26,561 bases of DNA from a virus. Positions 5,366 through 12,694 of the stretch are shown here, piece by piece. Position numbers and translations under genes: made by a program. Within the stretch, counting starts at the first letter, position 1; each line of letters starts with the position of its first letter. The stretch lies in IMG/VR virus record IMGVR_UViG_3300027759_000369, positions 1 through 26,561 of that record; one strand, written 5' to 3'. The notes under the pieces were generated by a model. It was not told where the DNA came from. It saw only the letters and a list, made by a program, of their open reading frames with translations, and made no database searches.

Positions 5366-5629
5366 ATGCCTTTATCAACTTCTCAAGTTACTGTCACAAC
5401 TTCCCCAACTTTGTTGGTCGCTGGTGAGACTAACCCAATTTTGGTTCATTTACATTTACACGACAACACAGACAATGTTTACATAGGTAACTCAACTGTG
5501 ACAACCTCAACAGGTTTAAGACTAATTAAGCAAGACTCTTTTGAAATCAATTTAGCGCCAGGAAATGCTTTGTATGGAATCATCACAACTTCCACAGCAA
5601 CAGTTTCCATTATGAAGCAGGTTTTGTAA
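5366..5629 (+). CDS. small beta-rich putative virion protein
   Basis: 87 aa. Thr/Val-rich alternating sequence with VYIGNSTVTTSTGLRL and NLAPGNALYGI, a pattern seen in small phage proteins of about 90-110 residues that lie in head or tail gene clusters and are usually annotated as hypothetical or as head accessory proteins. A beta-sandwich fold is likely from the strand pattern. Its TAA overlaps the ATG of the capsid protease gene (TAATG), so it is expressed with the head genes. A decoration or portal-associated role is possible but not shown. Confidence 0.6.
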   Translation: MPLSTSQVTVTTSPTLLVAGETNPILVHLHLHDNTDNVYIGNSTVTTSTGLRLIKQDSFEINLAPGNALYGIITTSTATVSIMKQVL

Positions 5630-7569
5630 TGCCATATTTTATTACTGACTCATCACCTGACTGTTCTGGTTGGGCAACTATTAAAGAAGATGGCGAAGTT
5701 GTTGGTTGCCATCAAAACAAACAAGATGCTATTGATCAGATGGTTGCTATTTCTTTATCTGAAGAATTAGAACCTGGTGGCGAAAGAGCAGAACCAGACG
5801 GTTTAATCGTAAATGATTTTGTTTCTTGGAATACTTCTGGCGGTAGAGCAAGAGGGCAAATTGAAAGAATTGTTCGAGATGGTTCAATAAATGTTCCAAA
5901 TTCTTCCTTTACGATAACTGGCACTCCTGACGATCCTGCTGCTTTAATTGTTGTATTTAGAGAAACCTCAGATGGTTACGAAAGCACAAATGTTAAAGTT
6001 GCACATAAATTTTCAACTTTGACAAAGATAAATGATTTGAGAAGTATCCGTTTGGATTCAGGACCACAAGCGGTAATTGTTGATATTGATGGAACTCTTA
6101 TTGGTTCTGGTGGGAGAAATGAAAAGGTTTACAACTTTCTTGACGATATGACTGACACAGAAATTTTTATTGTCACAGGTCGTAACGTGGATGACCGTGA
6201 ATCAACAATCAAACAATTAGATGATTTAAGTATTGACTATGACAGACTATTTATGAATCCTGGCTCAACTGCTGATACAGCAGATTTTAAGAGAGTCACA
6301 GCAGAAAATTTGTTGAAAGAATACAATGTGATTCTTGCAATTGATAACAATCCGACAATGAGAAAAGTTTATAGGGATTTAGGTATCACCGCTTTGGATG
6401 TTCCTGATGTGCCAGATGTTCCTAGTGATGAAAATGATCCTGATGAAGAACGTGCAGTTAATTTAGAAGCACCAGCATATATGCGTGCTGCTGCTCGCAG
6501 AGGTTTAGAACTAAACAGCCAAGGTTTTGGTGGTAATGGTTTAACAGATAAAACTAAACAAGAAGCCCGCGATATGGCTGAGGGTCGTGTCTCTGAAGAT
6601 AAGTGGCGCAGGATTGCTCCTTGGATTGCTCGACACCTTGTTGATTTAGATGCACCAAGTAATTCTGATTCAAGTGATTCAGGTTTCCCTGGTGCGGGAC
6701 TTGTCGCACATTTACTTTGGGGAAGCGGACCAAGTAAGCGTGCTGCTGAAAGAACACAGAGTTATGCCCAAAGCATTGTTGATCAGTTAGATGCTGAACA
6801 AAATATGCAACGTTGGGCAACAATCAATGTAAAATCAAATAAGAGCGAAAAGGAAAATACTGTGAACAAAGTTGAACGCCGCATTAAAACAGATGTTGAT
6901 TTTGAATTAAGAGTTACTACAACCGAATCTGATGGTATGAGATTTACTGGTTATGCCGCTGTATTCAATAGTGATTCTGAACCATTACCATTCATTGAAA
7001 GAATTATGCCTGGTGCTTTTCAACGTTCACTCAAGGCAAGAAATGAAGTTAAACTTTTTAAGAATCACAATATGGATGAAGTGTTGGCTTCTACTCGTTC
7101 AAAAACTTTAAGACTTTCTGAAGATTCAAAAGGTTTATTGGCTGAAGCAACTTTGCCTGACACAACTGCTGGTCGTGATTTGGCTGTGCTTATGAAACGT
7201 GGAGATGTTCACGCAATGTCTTTTGGTTTCTCTGTTCCAGCAAGAGGCGATTCTTGGTCTGATGATGGTATGACTAGACAATTGAAAGAGATTCGTTTAC
7301 ACGAAGTTTCTATTGTTACTGGTTTTCCAGCATACGAAGCAACTACTGCTTCTGTTAGATCGTTAGATATTTTGGCTTCTAGAACAAATGTTGATGCTGA
7401 TGCTTTGGCTGATGCGTTGAACAAGTTGGAATCTGGAGATAAGTTGCCTAATGTTCAAGCGGACTTGTTACAAGAAGTGGTTACTAAGTTAAGAGAAAAC
7501 ACTCCATCTGCTGATGAGTTGCTGGAACTTAAACGTAAACAACTTGACCTACTATTCAAGGCGGTATAA
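5629..7569 (+). CDS. multidomain capsid maturation protease (TUDOR-like, HAD phosphatase, HK97 prohead protease)
   Basis: 646 aa, about three times a plain prohead protease. Domains: residues 1-53, a CSGWATIKEDGE/QDAIDQMVAIS module known from phage head proteins; 57-133, a TUDOR-like segment (VNDFVSWNTSGGRARG, then GTPDDPAALIVV and AHKFSTLTK) resembling the HVA1 family; 148-256, a HAD domain with DIDGT (D152, D154), VTGR (T183) and AIDNNPTMRK (D239), closest in look to polynucleotide 3'-phosphatases; 262-266, a DVP-type repeat linker; 280-370, YMRAAARRGLELNSQG and VAHLLWG module; 415-580, HK97-type protease with H480 (KNHNMD), S531 (HAMSFGF) and E559 (LHEVSIV). The protease should cleave the capsid delta domain. 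The N-terminal part could be released by self-cleavage. An ATG/GTG start inside for a short protease form is possible but no strong site was seen. Confidence 0.88.
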   Translation: MPYFITDSSPDCSGWATIKEDGEVVGCHQNKQDAIDQMVAISLSEELEPGGERAEPDGLIVNDFVSWNTSGGRARGQIERIVRDGSINVPNSSFTITGTPDDPAALIVVFRETSDGYESTNVKVAHKFSTLTKINDLRSIRLDSGPQAVIVDIDGTLIGSGGRNEKVYNFLDDMTDTEIFIVTGRNVDDRESTIKQLDDLSIDYDRLFMNPGSTADTADFKRVTAENLLKEYNVILAIDNNPTMRKVYRDLGITALDVPDVPDVPSDENDPDEERAVNLEAPAYMRAAARRGLELNSQGFGGNGLTDKTKQEARDMAEGRVSEDKWRRIAPWIARHLVDLDAPSNSDSSDSGFPGAGLVAHLLWGSGPSKRAAERTQSYAQSIVDQLDAEQNMQRWATINVKSNKSEKENTVNKVERRIKTDVDFELRVTTTESDGMRFTGYAAVFNSDSEPLPFIERIMPGAFQRSLKARNEVKLFKNHNMDEVLASTRSKTLRLSEDSKGLLAEATLPDTTAGRDLAVLMKRGDVHAMSFGFSVPARGDSWSDDGMTRQLKEIRLHEVSIVTGFPAYEATTASVRSLDILASRTNVDADALADALNKLESGDKLPNVQADLLQEVVTKLRENTPSADELLELKRKQLDLLFKAV

Positions 7570-7571
7570 CA

Positions 7572-7754
7572 ATGGACAAACAACAAATTAAAGAAGCAAT
7601 CTTAAAGGCTGCTGGCAATCCTGAGTCAGGCGTAATTGCTGAGTTTGCTGATGCTATGGCTGAGGCTGTTGCAAATCTTGACAAACCTATTGAAACTAAA
7701 AAGTTTAATCCTATTGCAGAAACAAGAATTACAGAAATTTCTGAGACACGTTAA
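7572..7754 (+). CDS. small head-cluster protein of unknown function
   Basis: 60 aa, hydrophilic, acidic N-terminal helix (QQIKEAILKAAGNPESGVIAE) and a C-terminus ending in TRITEISETR. It lies two bases after the protease stop and ends about 100 bases before the capsid gene. Small proteins with a similar ETR-rich end occur between protease and capsid genes in related phages. It is too short to be a normal scaffold, and the capsid protein carries its own delta domain. Function unknown. Confidence 0.6.
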   Translation: MDKQQIKEAILKAAGNPESGVIAEFADAMAEAVANLDKPIETKKFNPIAETRITEISETR

Positions 7755-7860: not shown

Positions 7861-9045
7861 ATGTCTGAATACATTAAGCAACAACACGAAGCACGTCAGA
7901 ACGCTTGGGCAGAAGCCAAAGCACTTCTTGACGGTGCAGCAGCAGAAAAAAGAGATTTATCTGCTGAGGAAAATGCAAAATACGAACGTATTTCTGCTGA
8001 CCTAGATACAAGAGCAAAAGTAATCGAAACACTTAAAGCAGATGCAGATCGCGAATTGCGTGCAGCAGAAGCAATGCGTGGATTAGAAAACCAAGCACGT
8101 CCAGTTGCAGAAGTTGCATCACAAAATGATGACGCAGAAGCAATCCGTGCAATGGCAAGAGGTGAAGTTCGTTCACATACTTTTGAAAAAAGAGATGTCG
8201 TAAAAACTTCAACTGGCGCACCTGTTCCAACAAATTTTTACAACCAAGTTATCTTGCTTGCAAGACAATCTGGTCCAATGTTGGAGACTTCAACAATAAT
8301 CAATACAGCAGGTGGCGAGAACTTACAAATGCCATCAATCGGTACATACTCATCTGGCACAATTGCTGGAGAAGGTACTGCTATCGGAGAATCTGATCCA
8401 GTATTCAACAGTTTCATTACGCTGTCTGCTTACAAATACAGTTTCTTAACACAAGTATCACGCGAACTTATTGAAGATAGCGGAGTGGATATTTTGTCAT
8501 TCCTCGCTTCACAAGTAGGCCAATCACTCGGCTATTCCGTGAATACCGCGCTGACAACAGGCACAGGAACAATTGAACCTAACGGTTTAGTTACTCGTGC
8601 AGGTTCAGCACTTGTAGGAACTTCATTAAATCCAACAGCAGATAACCTAATTGATTTAGTTTACTCAGTTGATGCTTCAGGTCGCAGACTTGCTGGCACA
8701 GGATTCCAAATGAATGGTACATCAATTGCAAACGTGCGTAAATTGAAAGATACTGCGGGACAATATTTGTTCCAACCATCTCTTTCAGCAGAAGCACGCG
8801 ACTTGCTACTTGGATACCCAATTTACGAAAACCCAGCAATGGCAACAGCAGCATCTGCTGTTAGACCAGTCATATTTGGTAACTTACCTAGTTACTATGT
8901 AAGACAAGTTGGCGGAATTAAATTGGATCGTTCTGACGATTTTGCTTTCAATACTGATCTTGTGACATTCCGTGCCACATTCCGTGTTGATGGTAACTTG
9001 GTTCAAACAAGCCACGTTAAATACTTTAAGTCAAGCAACTCCTAA
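7861..9045 (+). CDS. major capsid protein, HK97 fold
   Basis: 394 aa, standard length. The first ~100 residues are a charged, Ala/Glu-rich, helix-forming delta domain (with RQNAWAEAKALLDGAAAEKR), which acts as internal scaffold and should be removed by the upstream protease. The mature part begins about residue 105-120 and shows the phage_capsid (PF05065) pattern: PTNFYNQVILLARQSGPMLE, the E-loop region, then SRELIEDSGVDILSFLA, a MNGTSIANVRKLKD stretch and a C-terminal beta-rich P domain. Strong AAGGAG site 7 nt before ATG. Third codon positions lean to A (GCA, ACA, CAA) more than in the terminase genes. Stem-loops flank the gene on both sides. Confidence 0.96.
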   Translation: MSEYIKQQHEARQNAWAEAKALLDGAAAEKRDLSAEENAKYERISADLDTRAKVIETLKADADRELRAAEAMRGLENQARPVAEVASQNDDAEAIRAMARGEVRSHTFEKRDVVKTSTGAPVPTNFYNQVILLARQSGPMLETSTIINTAGGENLQMPSIGTYSSGTIAGEGTAIGESDPVFNSFITLSAYKYSFLTQVSRELIEDSGVDILSFLASQVGQSLGYSVNTALTTGTGTIEPNGLVTRAGSALVGTSLNPTADNLIDLVYSVDASGRRLAGTGFQMNGTSIANVRKLKDTAGQYLFQPSLSAEARDLLLGYPIYENPAMATAASAVRPVIFGNLPSYYVRQVGGIKLDRSDDFAFNTDLVTFRATFRVDGNLVQTSHVKYFKSSNS

Positions 9046-9162: not shown

Positions 9163-10452
9163 GTGAACCGTGAACAAAAAAGATTATTAGCAAAACAAAA
9201 TAAAAATCAAAACGTACAAAATGTCGTACAACACCCAAGACGTATTCTTTGGGTTTCTAATGCACCTTGGGCTTCAACTGGTTATGGCCAACAAACAGCA
9301 CAAGTAATTCCAAGATTAAAAAAAGATAACAATGATGTTGCCATTGTGGCAAATTATGGTTTAGAAGCATCCACAACAACTTGGAACACTCCTACTGGTC
9401 CTGTTCCTATTTATCCTCGCGGTATGGAGCAATGGTCTAATGATGTTATTCCTGCACATATGCACGACTGGACTATAAGAGATAAAGATGCAGAAAATTT
9501 GTTGATAACTTTATTTGATGTTTGGGTATTTAAGGGCGAGAAGTGGGCTGAGTGGCCTGTTGCTTCTTGGACTCCAGTTGATCACGTTCCAGCACCACCA
9601 GATGTTTCTGCTTGGTGCAGACTTCCAAATGTTTATCCTATTGCTATGAGCAAGTTTGGTAAATCAATGTTTGAGAATGTTGGTATCGAATCTTGGTATG
9701 TGCCTCACGCTATTGAAAAAGTTTTTAAGCCAACAGAAAAAATTGTTGTTGCTGATGGTGAAGCAATTGATCCTAAAACTTTTATGAGATTACCTAAAGA
9801 CCGTTTTGTTGTTGGTATGAACGCGGCAAATAAAGGTGTAATGCCTAATCGTAAAGCGTTTGGTGAAAACTTGTTAGCATTTTCAATGTTTGCAAAACAA
9901 TATGATGACGCAATTCTTTATATTCATACTGACGCATCAGGTTCTATGGGTGGAATCAGGTTGATGGAGTTAATTATCTCTGTTGGTATTCCTGTTGAAA
10001 AGGTTGTGTTTGCTGATCCTTATTTGTTGCGTACAGGTTTGAGTCAGGAAACTATGGCAGCAATTTATTCTCAAATGGATGTGCTTCTTGCAACTTCTTA
10101 TGGTGAGGGTTTTGGTGTTCCAACTGTTGAAGCCCAAGCGTGTGGCGTTCCTGTAATTGTGTCGGATTTTGCCGCAAGCGCAGAGTTATGCGGAGATGGC
10201 TGGAAAATCGGTGGGCAACCTCTTTGGGATGCACCACAAAAATCTTTCTTCCATATTCCTAATGTTCCAGAAATTGTTGAAGCACTCACACAGGCGTATA
10301 ACAGAACTCGTGGCCCATCTCAAAAAGCAATTGATTTTGCTAAACAATATGATGCTGATTCAGTTTATGAAACTCAATGGAAACCAACTTTAGACAGCAT
10401 ATTTTCAAGAGTCGCTTCAGATAGGCTTAAAAAGCCCACAGAAGCAAAATAA
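9163..10452 (+). CDS. glycosyltransferase, GT4-like (GT-B fold)
   Basis: 429 aa, GTG start with TGGAGA at 9150-9155. An Arg/Lys/Gln-rich leader of ~25 residues precedes the first Rossmann strand RILWVSNAPWASTGYG. The C-terminal half has MDVLLATSYGEGFGVPTVE and AQACGVPVI, with the E-x7-E motif (E about 315 and 323) that binds the nucleotide-sugar donor in GT4 and related families. A retaining transferase using a nucleotide sugar is expected; donor and acceptor are unknown. It leads a four-gene glycan cassette lying within the structural genes, so its target may be a virion protein or a host surface glycan. No membrane segment is seen. Confidence 0.85.
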   Translation: MNREQKRLLAKQNKNQNVQNVVQHPRRILWVSNAPWASTGYGQQTAQVIPRLKKDNNDVAIVANYGLEASTTTWNTPTGPVPIYPRGMEQWSNDVIPAHMHDWTIRDKDAENLLITLFDVWVFKGEKWAEWPVASWTPVDHVPAPPDVSAWCRLPNVYPIAMSKFGKSMFENVGIESWYVPHAIEKVFKPTEKIVVADGEAIDPKTFMRLPKDRFVVGMNAANKGVMPNRKAFGENLLAFSMFAKQYDDAILYIHTDASGSMGGIRLMELIISVGIPVEKVVFADPYLLRTGLSQETMAAIYSQMDVLLATSYGEGFGVPTVEAQACGVPVIVSDFAASAELCGDGWKIGGQPLWDAPQKSFFHIPNVPEIVEALTQAYNRTRGPSQKAIDFAKQYDADSVYETQWKPTLDSIFSRVASDRLKKPTEAK

Positions 10453-10494
10453 CAGGGTTTTAACCTTAAAGGGTAGGCAGATTGTGGGTAAAAG

Positions 10495-11499
10495 TTGAAA
10501 GTTGTTATTACAGGCGTTGGTGGCTTTCTAGGAAGCCATCTAGCGGACACCTTTATTGACGCTGGTTGGCAAGTAACAGGAATAGACAACTTTCTAGGCG
10601 GCTACAAAGATAACGTTTCAGATCAAGTTGATTTATTTGAATTAGATTTACTTGATTTAGATTCACTAAAAGAACCTTTTGCAAACGCTGACCTTGTTAT
10701 ACACGCTGCTTGCACAGCATATGAGGGTTTATCCGTATTCAGCCCAAGTCTGGTTGTTGCTAACACAATTCAAGCAACCACAAATGCTTTAACAGCATCA
10801 ATTCAAAACAATGTTAAAAAGTTTGTTTACCTTTCATCAATGGCACGTTACGGTGATAAAAAAGGTGAATTGTTTACAGAAGATATGACTCCTAACCCAC
10901 AAGACCCTTACGGAATTGCTAAGTTTGGTTCAGAACTTCTTGTAAAAAACTTATGTGAAACTCACGGACTTGATTGGGTAATTCTTGTTCCACATAACAT
11001 TATTGGCCCACGACAAAAATATGATGATCCTTACAGAAACGTTGCATCAATTTTTATCAACAGAATGTTGCAAGGTAAACAACCAATCATTTATGGTCAA
11101 GGCAAATCAATGCGCTGTTTCTCTTTTATCCAAGATGTAATCAATCCTCTGATGGTTGCTTGTGAATCACCTGATGCAGTTGGTCAAATTATTAACATTG
11201 GACCTGATGAGGAACACATAACTATTTATGATTTGGCAATTAATATTGCTGAGATTCTTGAATTTGATCTTGACCCAATTTTTATGCCAGGCAGACCTCA
11301 AGAAGTTTTGATTGCTTTGTGTAGTTCTGATAAAGCAAGAAATATTTTAGGTTACAAGACTGGCACAGATTTAACTGAGGGTTTGAAGCAACTTGTTGAA
11401 TACATTAAAACTCGTGGTGTAAAACCTTTCGAATATCATTTGCCTTTGGAGATTGTGTCGGACAAGACACCTAAAACTTGGTCTCAGAGGTTGATGTGA
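10495..11499 (+). CDS. NAD-dependent nucleotide-sugar epimerase/dehydratase (extended SDR)
   Basis: 334 aa. The NAD-binding GxxGxxG is at residues 7-13 (VVITGVGGFLG), the SDR active-site Tyr and Lys are Y139 and K143 (DPYGIAKFG), preceded by a YLSSM serine strand. IIGPRQKYDDPYRNV and the FSFIQDV stretch match sugar-nucleotide epimerase/dehydratase families such as UDP-glucose 4-epimerase; the exact substrate cannot be read. The TTG start is forced: an in-frame TAA lies at 10489-10491 and the Rossmann motif begins at residue 2. The ribosome binding site is weak. It probably makes the activated sugar used by the flanking glycosyltransferases. Confidence 0.87.
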   Translation: MKVVITGVGGFLGSHLADTFIDAGWQVTGIDNFLGGYKDNVSDQVDLFELDLLDLDSLKEPFANADLVIHAACTAYEGLSVFSPSLVVANTIQATTNALTASIQNNVKKFVYLSSMARYGDKKGELFTEDMTPNPQDPYGIAKFGSELLVKNLCETHGLDWVILVPHNIIGPRQKYDDPYRNVASIFINRMLQGKQPIIYGQGKSMRCFSFIQDVINPLMVACESPDAVGQIINIGPDEEHITIYDLAINIAEILEFDLDPIFMPGRPQEVLIALCSSDKARNILGYKTGTDLTEGLKQLVEYIKTRGVKPFEYHLPLEIVSDKTPKTWSQRLM

Positions 11500-12047
11500 A
11501 AACTTTGCAAGAGATTTATCCTAACTTTCAGGATGCTGATGGTTCGGGTGATAAAGGTACAGCCCATTCTTATATTGATGTTTATGCTGAGCATTTAACT
11601 AAAAGGTTTGGTGTGAACTTTTTGGAGATCGGTGTTCAACTTGGTCATTCAATTGCTATGTGGCAGGACTATTTTATGGAGTCACAAGTTTACGGAATTG
11701 ATGTGACTTTATCTAATGTCATTTTTGATAATTTAGAGAACGTTTATGTTTGTAACGCAACTGTTCAAGAGCAGGTTGATTCTTGCTTTGAGGGCAAATC
11801 TTTTGATTACATTATTGATGATGGCAGTCATTTATCAGTTGAACAGATCAAGAGTTTGGAAATCTTTTATCCATACTTAAAAGAGAACGGCAAATACTTT
11901 ATTGAGGATGTTAATGGGGATAACAGTTTGAATACAATCAAGAATTATTTAATCAAGCACAATATGAATTTTCAAATTTATGATCTACGAGATATAAAGA
12001 AACGCTATGACGACATTTTGATTGTGATAACTAAGGAGACCAAATGA
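11496..12047 (+). CDS. class I SAM-dependent methyltransferase, probably sugar or glycan methylation
   Basis: 183 aa from GTG 11496, which overlaps the epimerase stop as GTGA and is preceded by CAGAGG at 11485-11490; a TTG at 11478 is less likely. Motif I is FLEIGVQLGHSIAMW, followed by VYGIDV (acidic end of strand 2) and the active-site-like DYIIDDGSH. This layout matches the MycE/methyltransferase-24-type group that includes methylases of macrolide sugars and many glycan-cluster enzymes. SAM-dependent methylation of a sugar is inferred from the family and from its place between a sugar epimerase and a glycosyltransferase. Its stop overlaps the next ATG as ATGA. Confidence 0.82.
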   Translation: MKTLQEIYPNFQDADGSGDKGTAHSYIDVYAEHLTKRFGVNFLEIGVQLGHSIAMWQDYFMESQVYGIDVTLSNVIFDNLENVYVCNATVQEQVDSCFEGKSFDYIIDDGSHLSVEQIKSLEIFYPYLKENGKYFIEDVNGDNSLNTIKNYLIKHNMNFQIYDLRDIKKRYDDILIVITKETK

Positions 12048-12694
12048 TTCCAGCAATGGTTGTGCCAATAATCAACGGCTACCAATATCTTGACAGGATG
12101 ATGGAAACCATAAATTACCCAATCCAAAATTTAGTAATTGTTGATAATGGTGCTTCAAAGAATGATTGGACACCAACTTGGAATCAATGGGTTTCAAAAG
12201 TTTGGCATCTAAAGTTTCCCTCAAATCTGGGTGTTCCTGGTTCTTGGAATCTTGGTATCAAATCTTTACCTATGTCGGATTATTGGTTGATTGCTAATGC
12301 AGATGTTGAGTGGGCTGAGGATTCTTTGAAACTGTTTGCTGAGGAATCTGATCCAAACAAAATTGTTTTATCTAACGCTGGGGCTGCGTGGTGTGCTTTC
12401 ACTATCGGTTGGAAAGTTGTTGAAAAGGTTGGGCTGTTTGATGAAAACTTTTACCCAATATATTTTGAGGATAATGACTACCAGCACAGGGCTGAGTTAC
12501 AGAACATAGAAATTGTTAATTCGTTTATTCCTGTTGCTCACGTCAATTCTGTTTCAATCAAAAATGGGTATGCTGAACGAAACAATGTGACTTTTCCTGA
12601 TAATCAAGAATATTGGAATCACAAAAAGTCCAACAATATTACGACTGAAACCCCTTGGAATATTCGTAGGATCAGACGCAACTCCTGGGATTAA
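12044..12694 (+). CDS. glycosyltransferase, GT2-like (GT-A fold)
   Basis: 216 aa. Opens with AMVVPIINGYQYL and a nucleotide-binding NLVIVDNGAS, then NLGVPGSWNLGI, the metal-binding NADVEW (in place of DxD), a FDENFYPIYFEDNDYQHRAE segment typical of GT2 rhamnosyl/galactofuranosyl-type transferases, and ends with a basic tail. Inverting transfer from a nucleotide sugar is expected. It is shorter than many GT2 enzymes but complete in its core. Last gene of the glycan cassette; 37 bases separate it from the head-tail connector gene. Confidence 0.82.
   Translation: MIPAMVVPIINGYQYLDRMMETINYPIQNLVIVDNGASKNDWTPTWNQWVSKVWHLKFPSNLGVPGSWNLGIKSLPMSDYWLIANADVEWAEDSLKLFAEESDPNKIVLSNAGAAWCAFTIGWKVVEKVGLFDENFYPIYFEDNDYQHRAELQNIEIVNSFIPVAHVNSVSIKNGYAERNNVTFPDNQEYWNHKKSNNITTETPWNIRRIRRNSWD

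Follow-up and report, generated by a model that had tools for sequence, protein, structure and literature searches.

The 646-aa protein encoded between the portal and capsid genes of the window (the whole 26,561-nt stretch that was analysed, IMG/VR record IMGVR_UViG_3300027759_000369) is probably a phage-type polyvalent polyprotein, in which a C-terminal prohead protease would cut packaged modules apart and a nested product would supply the plain protease. A TUDOR-like domain, a HAD phosphatase domain and an S78 protease share this single open reading frame (ORF), and related proteins have shuffled architectures with 22 orders of their middle modules, as befits a polyvalent protein. The lines of evidence that make this reading a probable one are the constant ends of the family, the number of orders, the Arg residues at the joints, the likeness of these joints to the E-x-R of the capsid protein, the low dN/dS, the nested start, a natural split between modules and protease and a published precedent.

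The ORF (5629-7569, + strand) is open and intact, and relatives at 93-100% identity share the same fused frame, which rules out a frameshift or two-gene artefact, the caveat attached to the initial annotation of this DNA. It is preceded by genes for a ParB-like protein, the small and large terminase subunits, the portal, a Gp80-like head protein and two small proteins, and it is followed by a 60-aa ORF, an HK97-type capsid gene and then glycosyltransferase and sugar genes (Table 1). The 60-aa ORF, of which 119 distinct copies were found in related loci, ends in xETRIxExxETR, the ETR end being common to the copies listed, and its product may be a substrate or a regulator of the protease. Glycosyltransferases, an NAD-dependent epimerase and a methyltransferase occupy positions 9163-12694, after the capsid gene, and possibly form a sugar-modifying cluster; glycosyltransferases and a methyltransferase likewise lie 3′ of the capsid gene in Pontimonas phage phiPsal1. 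No spare copies of the modules were found elsewhere in the 26.6-kb window.

Table 1. Features of the 646-aa gene and of its 3′ neighbours, in window coordinates
Feature	Position	Strand	Evidence
Constant first module N (aa 1-53)	5629..5787	+	First in 168/168 listed relatives
Joint Arg R53, end of N	codon 5785-5787	+	Arg before TUD 94/94
TUDOR-like module, Hva1_TUDOR/DUF2945 (aa 54-141)	5788..6051	+	Pfam E 4e-5; exchangeable, 94 copies
Joint Arg R141, end of TUDOR-like module	codon 6049-6051	+	Arg before HAD 42/42
PNKP-type HAD phosphatase module (aa 142-275)	6052..6453	+	Pfam HAD_PNKP E 4e-7; Foldseek 5uj0 E 1e-5; catalytic residues conserved
Joint Arg R275, end of HAD module	codon 6451-6453	+	Arg before LWG 168/168
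Constant helical LWG module and linker (aa 276-411)	6454..6861	+	In 168/168 listed relatives; model pLDDT 88
Predicted internal start GTG (V412), purine-rich stretch upstream	6862..6864	+	Start codon in 151/151 scored relatives
S78 prohead protease (Pfam 427-578) and helical C-terminal tail	6862..7569	+	Pfam E 7e-43; H480, S531, E559
60-aa ORF ending in ETR	7572..7754	+	Conserved between protease and capsid genes
HK97-type major capsid protein	7861..9045	+	Pfam Phage_capsid E 8e-56
Predicted delta-domain cut after R111 of capsid protein	codon 8191-8193	+	E-x-R followed by D/A

The protease was recognised by the Pfam profile Peptidase_S78 at residues 427-578 (E 7e-43), and its residues H480, S531 and E559 are invariant in all 46 aligned sequences. 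The AlphaFold model matched the T4 gp21 protease (5jbl) in a Foldseek search (E 1.4e-3). Membership of S78 is indicated by the profile, by the presence of the His-Ser-Glu catalytic residues and by the position of the gene beside that of an HK97-fold capsid protein, which has a delta domain at its N-terminus. For the phosphatase, the profile HAD_PNKP matched residues 146-258 (E 4e-7; 30.7 bits against a cut-off of 27.6), and the predicted structure matched the 3′-phosphatase of T4 Pnkp (5uj0; E 1e-5, TM-score by target 0.63 in Foldseek). The HAD motifs are represented by D152-I-D154-G-T, T183 and R185 (VTGR), K221 and D239-N240; all 51 HAD copies have D152, D154, R185 and K221, and 50 of them have D239. 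The second residue of motif IV is Asn240 where T4 Pnkp has a second Asp. A D-N pair at this motif is the normal state in SCP/FCP1 phosphatases. The place of Arg176 of T4 Pnkp is filled by R163 in the window protein, and because Arg is not conserved there across the family, the substrate of the HAD module may differ from that of T4 Pnkp. By profile, fold and active-site motifs, the module is a PNKP-type phosphatase that is presumably active. A TUDOR-like domain was matched at residues 63-107 by Hva1_TUDOR (DUF2945; E 4e-5) with 24.0 bits, 0.1 bit under the curated cut-off of 24.1. Thus, the initial annotation was right in describing a complete HK97-type protease with H480, S531 and E559, a TUDOR-like domain and, at 148-256, a HAD domain with DIDGT and VTGR.

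The confidence of the AlphaFold model drops at residues 41-60 (block means 60 and 68) and is below 50 at 139-143, 265-276 and 395-435, and these stretches coincide with the module joints, that is, with linkers. The LWG module gave no fold or profile relatives in the PDB by sequence-profile and fold searches, and among annotated phages it has close relatives in phiPsal1 only.

A scan of IMG/VR yielded more than 590 related stretches, of which 80 per scan were taken, and the 168 distinct proteins listed with both the first module and the protease were annotated with module profiles built for the analysis. Among annotated phages only Pontimonas phage phiPsal1 (MG835450) is close, and the GTDB genomes contributed one truncated relative, in a MAG. 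In the 168 listed proteins, N is always first and LWG, S78 and the tail are always last. The region between them displays 22 orders of five module types (doubled DUF3721 hits taken as one, truncated tails ignored and the arrangement lacking any middle included), with 94 copies of the TUDOR-like module, 84 of a HiPIP-like module, 42 of HAD and 33 of DUF5824, and with DUF3721 in 8 proteins. A middle module is absent from contig L079 and three others, and no unassigned stretch of 45 residues or more is left in the listed proteins. Because HAD occurs in 42 of the 168 and some proteins carry no middle module, none of the middle modules is essential. The TUD-HAD order of the window is present in 13 of the 168. 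The full module order, which the initial annotation had singled out as the unusual feature, is therefore one of 22 and not special in itself; what is special is the swappable cassette slot. The annotation's interpretation stands for the PNKP-type phosphatase, the TUDOR-like domain and the protease; it does not stand for the order, and it had overlooked the nested protease start.

Exchange of the middle modules is recent, as judged from the sequences. On a FastTree phylogeny of the constant half (163 rows), the middle changed at least 72 times and the presence of HAD at least 21 times, counts that recombination inside the constant half could inflate. Different middles were found between genes whose constant halves are 98-100% identical; between L208 and L217, a replacement of TUD/HAD is flanked on one side by 3217 nt of 99.3% identity and on the other by 123 nt of 100% identity. 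Despite this swapping, the HAD module is constrained much like the protease (median dN/dS of 0.096 and 0.079, respectively). A DUF5824 module 64% identical to that of the family is present in an unrelated 129-kb phage, Actinomycetia phage DSL-LC01 (L272, 7596-8639), two genes after the portal, which shows that modules travel between phage lineages. The HiPIP-like module, absent from the window protein and present in phiPsal1 (L082) and many other relatives, carries four invariant Cys (CGNC ... C ... YCNAW) and looks like a high-potential iron-sulfur protein, with weak matches to Pfam HIPIP (E 0.014 in phiPsal1) and, in a PDB profile search, to 1hpi (E 0.4). It would be unusual for a phage head protein to contain an Fe-S cluster.

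The joints between modules have a residue in common. Arg precedes the exchangeable modules and LWG at 416 of 421 joints, across five unrelated modules (TUD 94/94, HIP 84/84, LWG 168/168, HAD 42/42 and DUF5824 28/33; DUF3721 joints were too rare to be scored). In the ten residues preceding it, Arg reaches 0-11% at any position and Asp plus Glu account for 38%. An acidic residue at P2-P4 is found in 163/168 LWG, 81/94 TUD, 32/42 HAD and 25/28 DUF5824 joints and in 48/84 HIP joints, which are less acidic than the others. The joint Arg is encoded by all six Arg codons, within many different 9-mers, and selection therefore acts at the protein level. The capsid protein has a conserved N-terminal region ending in E-x-R, and across 163 aligned capsid sequences almost every intact row has a delta domain that ends in E-x-R followed by D or A, the cut site being predicted from its position ahead of the conserved start of the mature capsid domain. 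Apparent exceptions at P1 (K, S, Q) were explained by a shift in the alignment or by truncation of the row, and those that are intact have E-x-R. The joint Arg thus resembles a protease site, and we infer that a single protease acts on the capsid delta domain as well as on the joints. The suggestion in the initial annotation that the phosphatase is carried into the procapsid and may be cut off fits the conserved Arg junctions, with cleavage and packaging as its presumed steps.

All 151 scored genes have a start codon directly 5′ of the VERR (or LETR) motif with which the protease begins, in most cases at a distance of three or four residues, although in a few rows the sole start codon is elsewhere in the scored stretch; 17 genes were left out of the scoring, their motif being mostly METR with its own ATG. 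The codon is ATG, TTG or, wherever the residue is Val, GTG; GTG represents 24% of the Val codons in the family genes, yet it is always the Val codon at this place. With the best candidate chosen per gene, pairing with the anti-Shine-Dalgarno sequence is about as strong at the nested start (-5.2 kcal/mol) as at the annotated start (-5.2 kcal/mol) and stronger than at other in-frame start codons (-3.6 kcal/mol). The nested start of the window is GTG412 (6862-6864), behind AAGAGCGAAAAGGAAAATACT, and that of phiPsal1 is a TTG behind GGAGAAGCG. These sequence features strongly indicate that an internal start before the protease gives rise to a second, shorter product, the plain protease (aa 412-646, 26 kDa).

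The modules also occur apart from the protease. A separate protein carries the N-HAD-LWG string in L092/L273, L093 and L122/L274, where the string is followed not by the protease but by a HLPGGHDQLTHG tag and an ART-like domain (weak match to ART-PolyVal, E 0.063). The next two genes have the same kind of tag, one with a HEWGH motif and the other encoding a zeta-toxin-family kinase. L274 has in addition a stand-alone S78 protease (E 4e-87) that reads MKTIERR, its first in-frame Met being at the nested-start place of the fused genes. String and protease are separable units, since they are split in these contigs and the protease stands alone in L274. Judged by sequence, the domains found alongside the string are of types already described in polyvalent proteins. 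As a separate observation, an RHLPGxH(D/N)Q tag is common to three consecutive head-region genes of L092 (2845-6366), L093, L122, L273 and L274, where it precedes the ART-like domain, the HExxH-type protein and the zeta-toxin-family kinase, and Arg stands directly before the HLPGxHDQ tag in every copy seen, in three separate genes. The tagged proteins are likely a family of packaged effectors with a common tag. No further relatives of the ART-like C-terminus were found beyond contigs L092/L273, L093 and L122/L274.

The polyprotein would work as follows. The long form would enter the procapsid through its protease and tail part, as a minority of the protease molecules. At the onset of maturation, the protease would cut after E-x-R-like sites, in the delta domain of the capsid protein as well as between the modules, and these cuts would free N (5.8 kDa), TUDOR (9.6 kDa), HAD (14.9 kDa) and LWG as separate small proteins. 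Some of the freed modules would remain with the DNA and pass into the next host, where HAD would dephosphorylate the 3′ ends of nucleic acids or a comparable substrate, probably to counter host defence or damage. Cleavage at Arg, packaging, delivery and phosphatase activity are steps that we infer from the comparison of genes. Fast swapping of the modules fits an arms race, and since the conserved joint Arg resembles the cutting site of the enzyme itself, the gene reads like a self-cutting delivery cassette. Extended to the family, the model describes a widespread phage group that has made its prohead protease the C-terminal motor of a plug-in cargo polyprotein, with cassettes swapped between Arg cleavage sites, a nested start that sets the cargo-bearing share, and shell maturation as the very step by which enzymes aimed at the host, such as a nucleic-acid 3′-phosphatase, are loaded and set free; we regard this wider picture as having an even chance of being correct.

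The main rival reading is that the N-terminal modules are parts of a propeptide or internal scaffold, which aid assembly or keep the protease inactive, are cut at the Arg and exit the prohead without being delivered to a host. The acidic linkers agree with it, and so does the general expectation for tailed phages that a propeptide, once cut by the prohead protease, departs from the head (PMC10052503), which also counts against packaged modules. A pure scaffold, however, needs neither conserved phosphatase residues nor four invariant Cys, its parts would hardly be exchanged so freely or be missing, and the string is joined to an ART-like domain where there is no protease, so that we consider this reading rather unlikely, if the most serious competitor. 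The polyprotein reading is further weakened by the absence of HAD from most relatives, the D-N of motif IV, the unconserved Arg at the R176 place, the predicted nature of the capsid cut site and the less acidic HIP joints, and with these points weighed it is still the explanation that we hold to be the probable one.

Very frequent exchange, with breakpoints near the joints, could also mean that the Arg and the boundaries are traces of recombination sites for cassette exchange, the protein staying uncut and its modules acting as tethered binding domains. No DNA motif is conserved, because all six Arg codons and many 9-mers are used, and this codon diversity disfavours such a meaning of the joint Arg; in addition, three separate genes for other proteins have an Arg ahead of their HLPGxHDQ tag, and a site of this kind recurs in the capsid protein, which leaves this explanation improbable. 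Ordinary mosaicism, with the modules as neutral or degenerate passengers on the protease gene and functionless in the particle, agrees with the presence of HAD in only 42 of the 168 listed relatives and with the frequent mosaicism of phage head genes, but it is at odds with the fixed ends, the conserved joints, the conserved catalytic residues and the low dN/dS, and we give it very little credence.

If the polyprotein reading is correct, the maturation of the phage capsid also serves to release cargo, and predicted cutting sites could be deduced from the sequences of hundreds of uncultured phages. The exchangeable modules of this family, which spans a large group of bacterial viruses from the environment, would then be a natural list of candidate injected proteins, and the reading would also suggest a natural tag-and-cut route for loading proteins into capsids.

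The arrangement can be compared with several known systems. As with the HK97 gp4 protease and gp5 capsid protein, an S78-type protease would remove an N-terminal delta scaffold domain in the window. The HK97 protease is not known to carry a cassette string. The prohead protease of phiPsal1 (MG835450) has the same N, LWG, S78 and tail and a TTG internal start before SQLETR, whereas its middle is a single HiPIP-like module, without TUDOR or HAD. The HAD module shares the HAD fold and the DxDGT and T/SGR motifs with the 3′-phosphatase domain of T4 Pnkp (5uj0), from which it differs in lacking a kinase domain, in having D-N instead of D-D at motif IV and in being fused to a prohead protease. In SPN3US, head proteins are processed within the prohead by the prohead protease gp245, and some of them probably reach the host; these substrates are encoded by separate genes and have propeptides that are cut after a Glu-type motif (E-124 in gp54) (PMC10052503). 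In contrast, the cargo is here fused to the protease and the predicted site follows Arg. No report of a prohead protease fused to polynucleotide kinase or HiPIP, or of domain shuffling in one, turned up in the literature searched. Phage polyvalent proteins, whose assemblin-like peptidases, when present, are always C-terminal and are the probable agents of processing (Iyer et al., 2017; PMC5512222), resemble the 646-aa protein: one polypeptide, encoded by a late gene close to the portal, combines several unrelated domains, has a C-terminal peptidase and undergoes frequent domain exchange. Their repertoire includes zeta-toxin and ART domains, and a zeta-toxin-family kinase and an ART-like domain accompany the split N-HAD-LWG strings; PNKP, phosphatase and TUDOR were not found in the main text of that study (PMC5512222). 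Unlike in those proteins, the peptidase is here the prohead protease of the phage itself, encoded next to the capsid gene and with a nested start, and the modules are short and joined at a conserved Arg. Thus, a C-terminal peptidase in polyvalent proteins was already published, whereas a prohead protease as that peptidase, the Arg-joint cassettes and the nested start are new.
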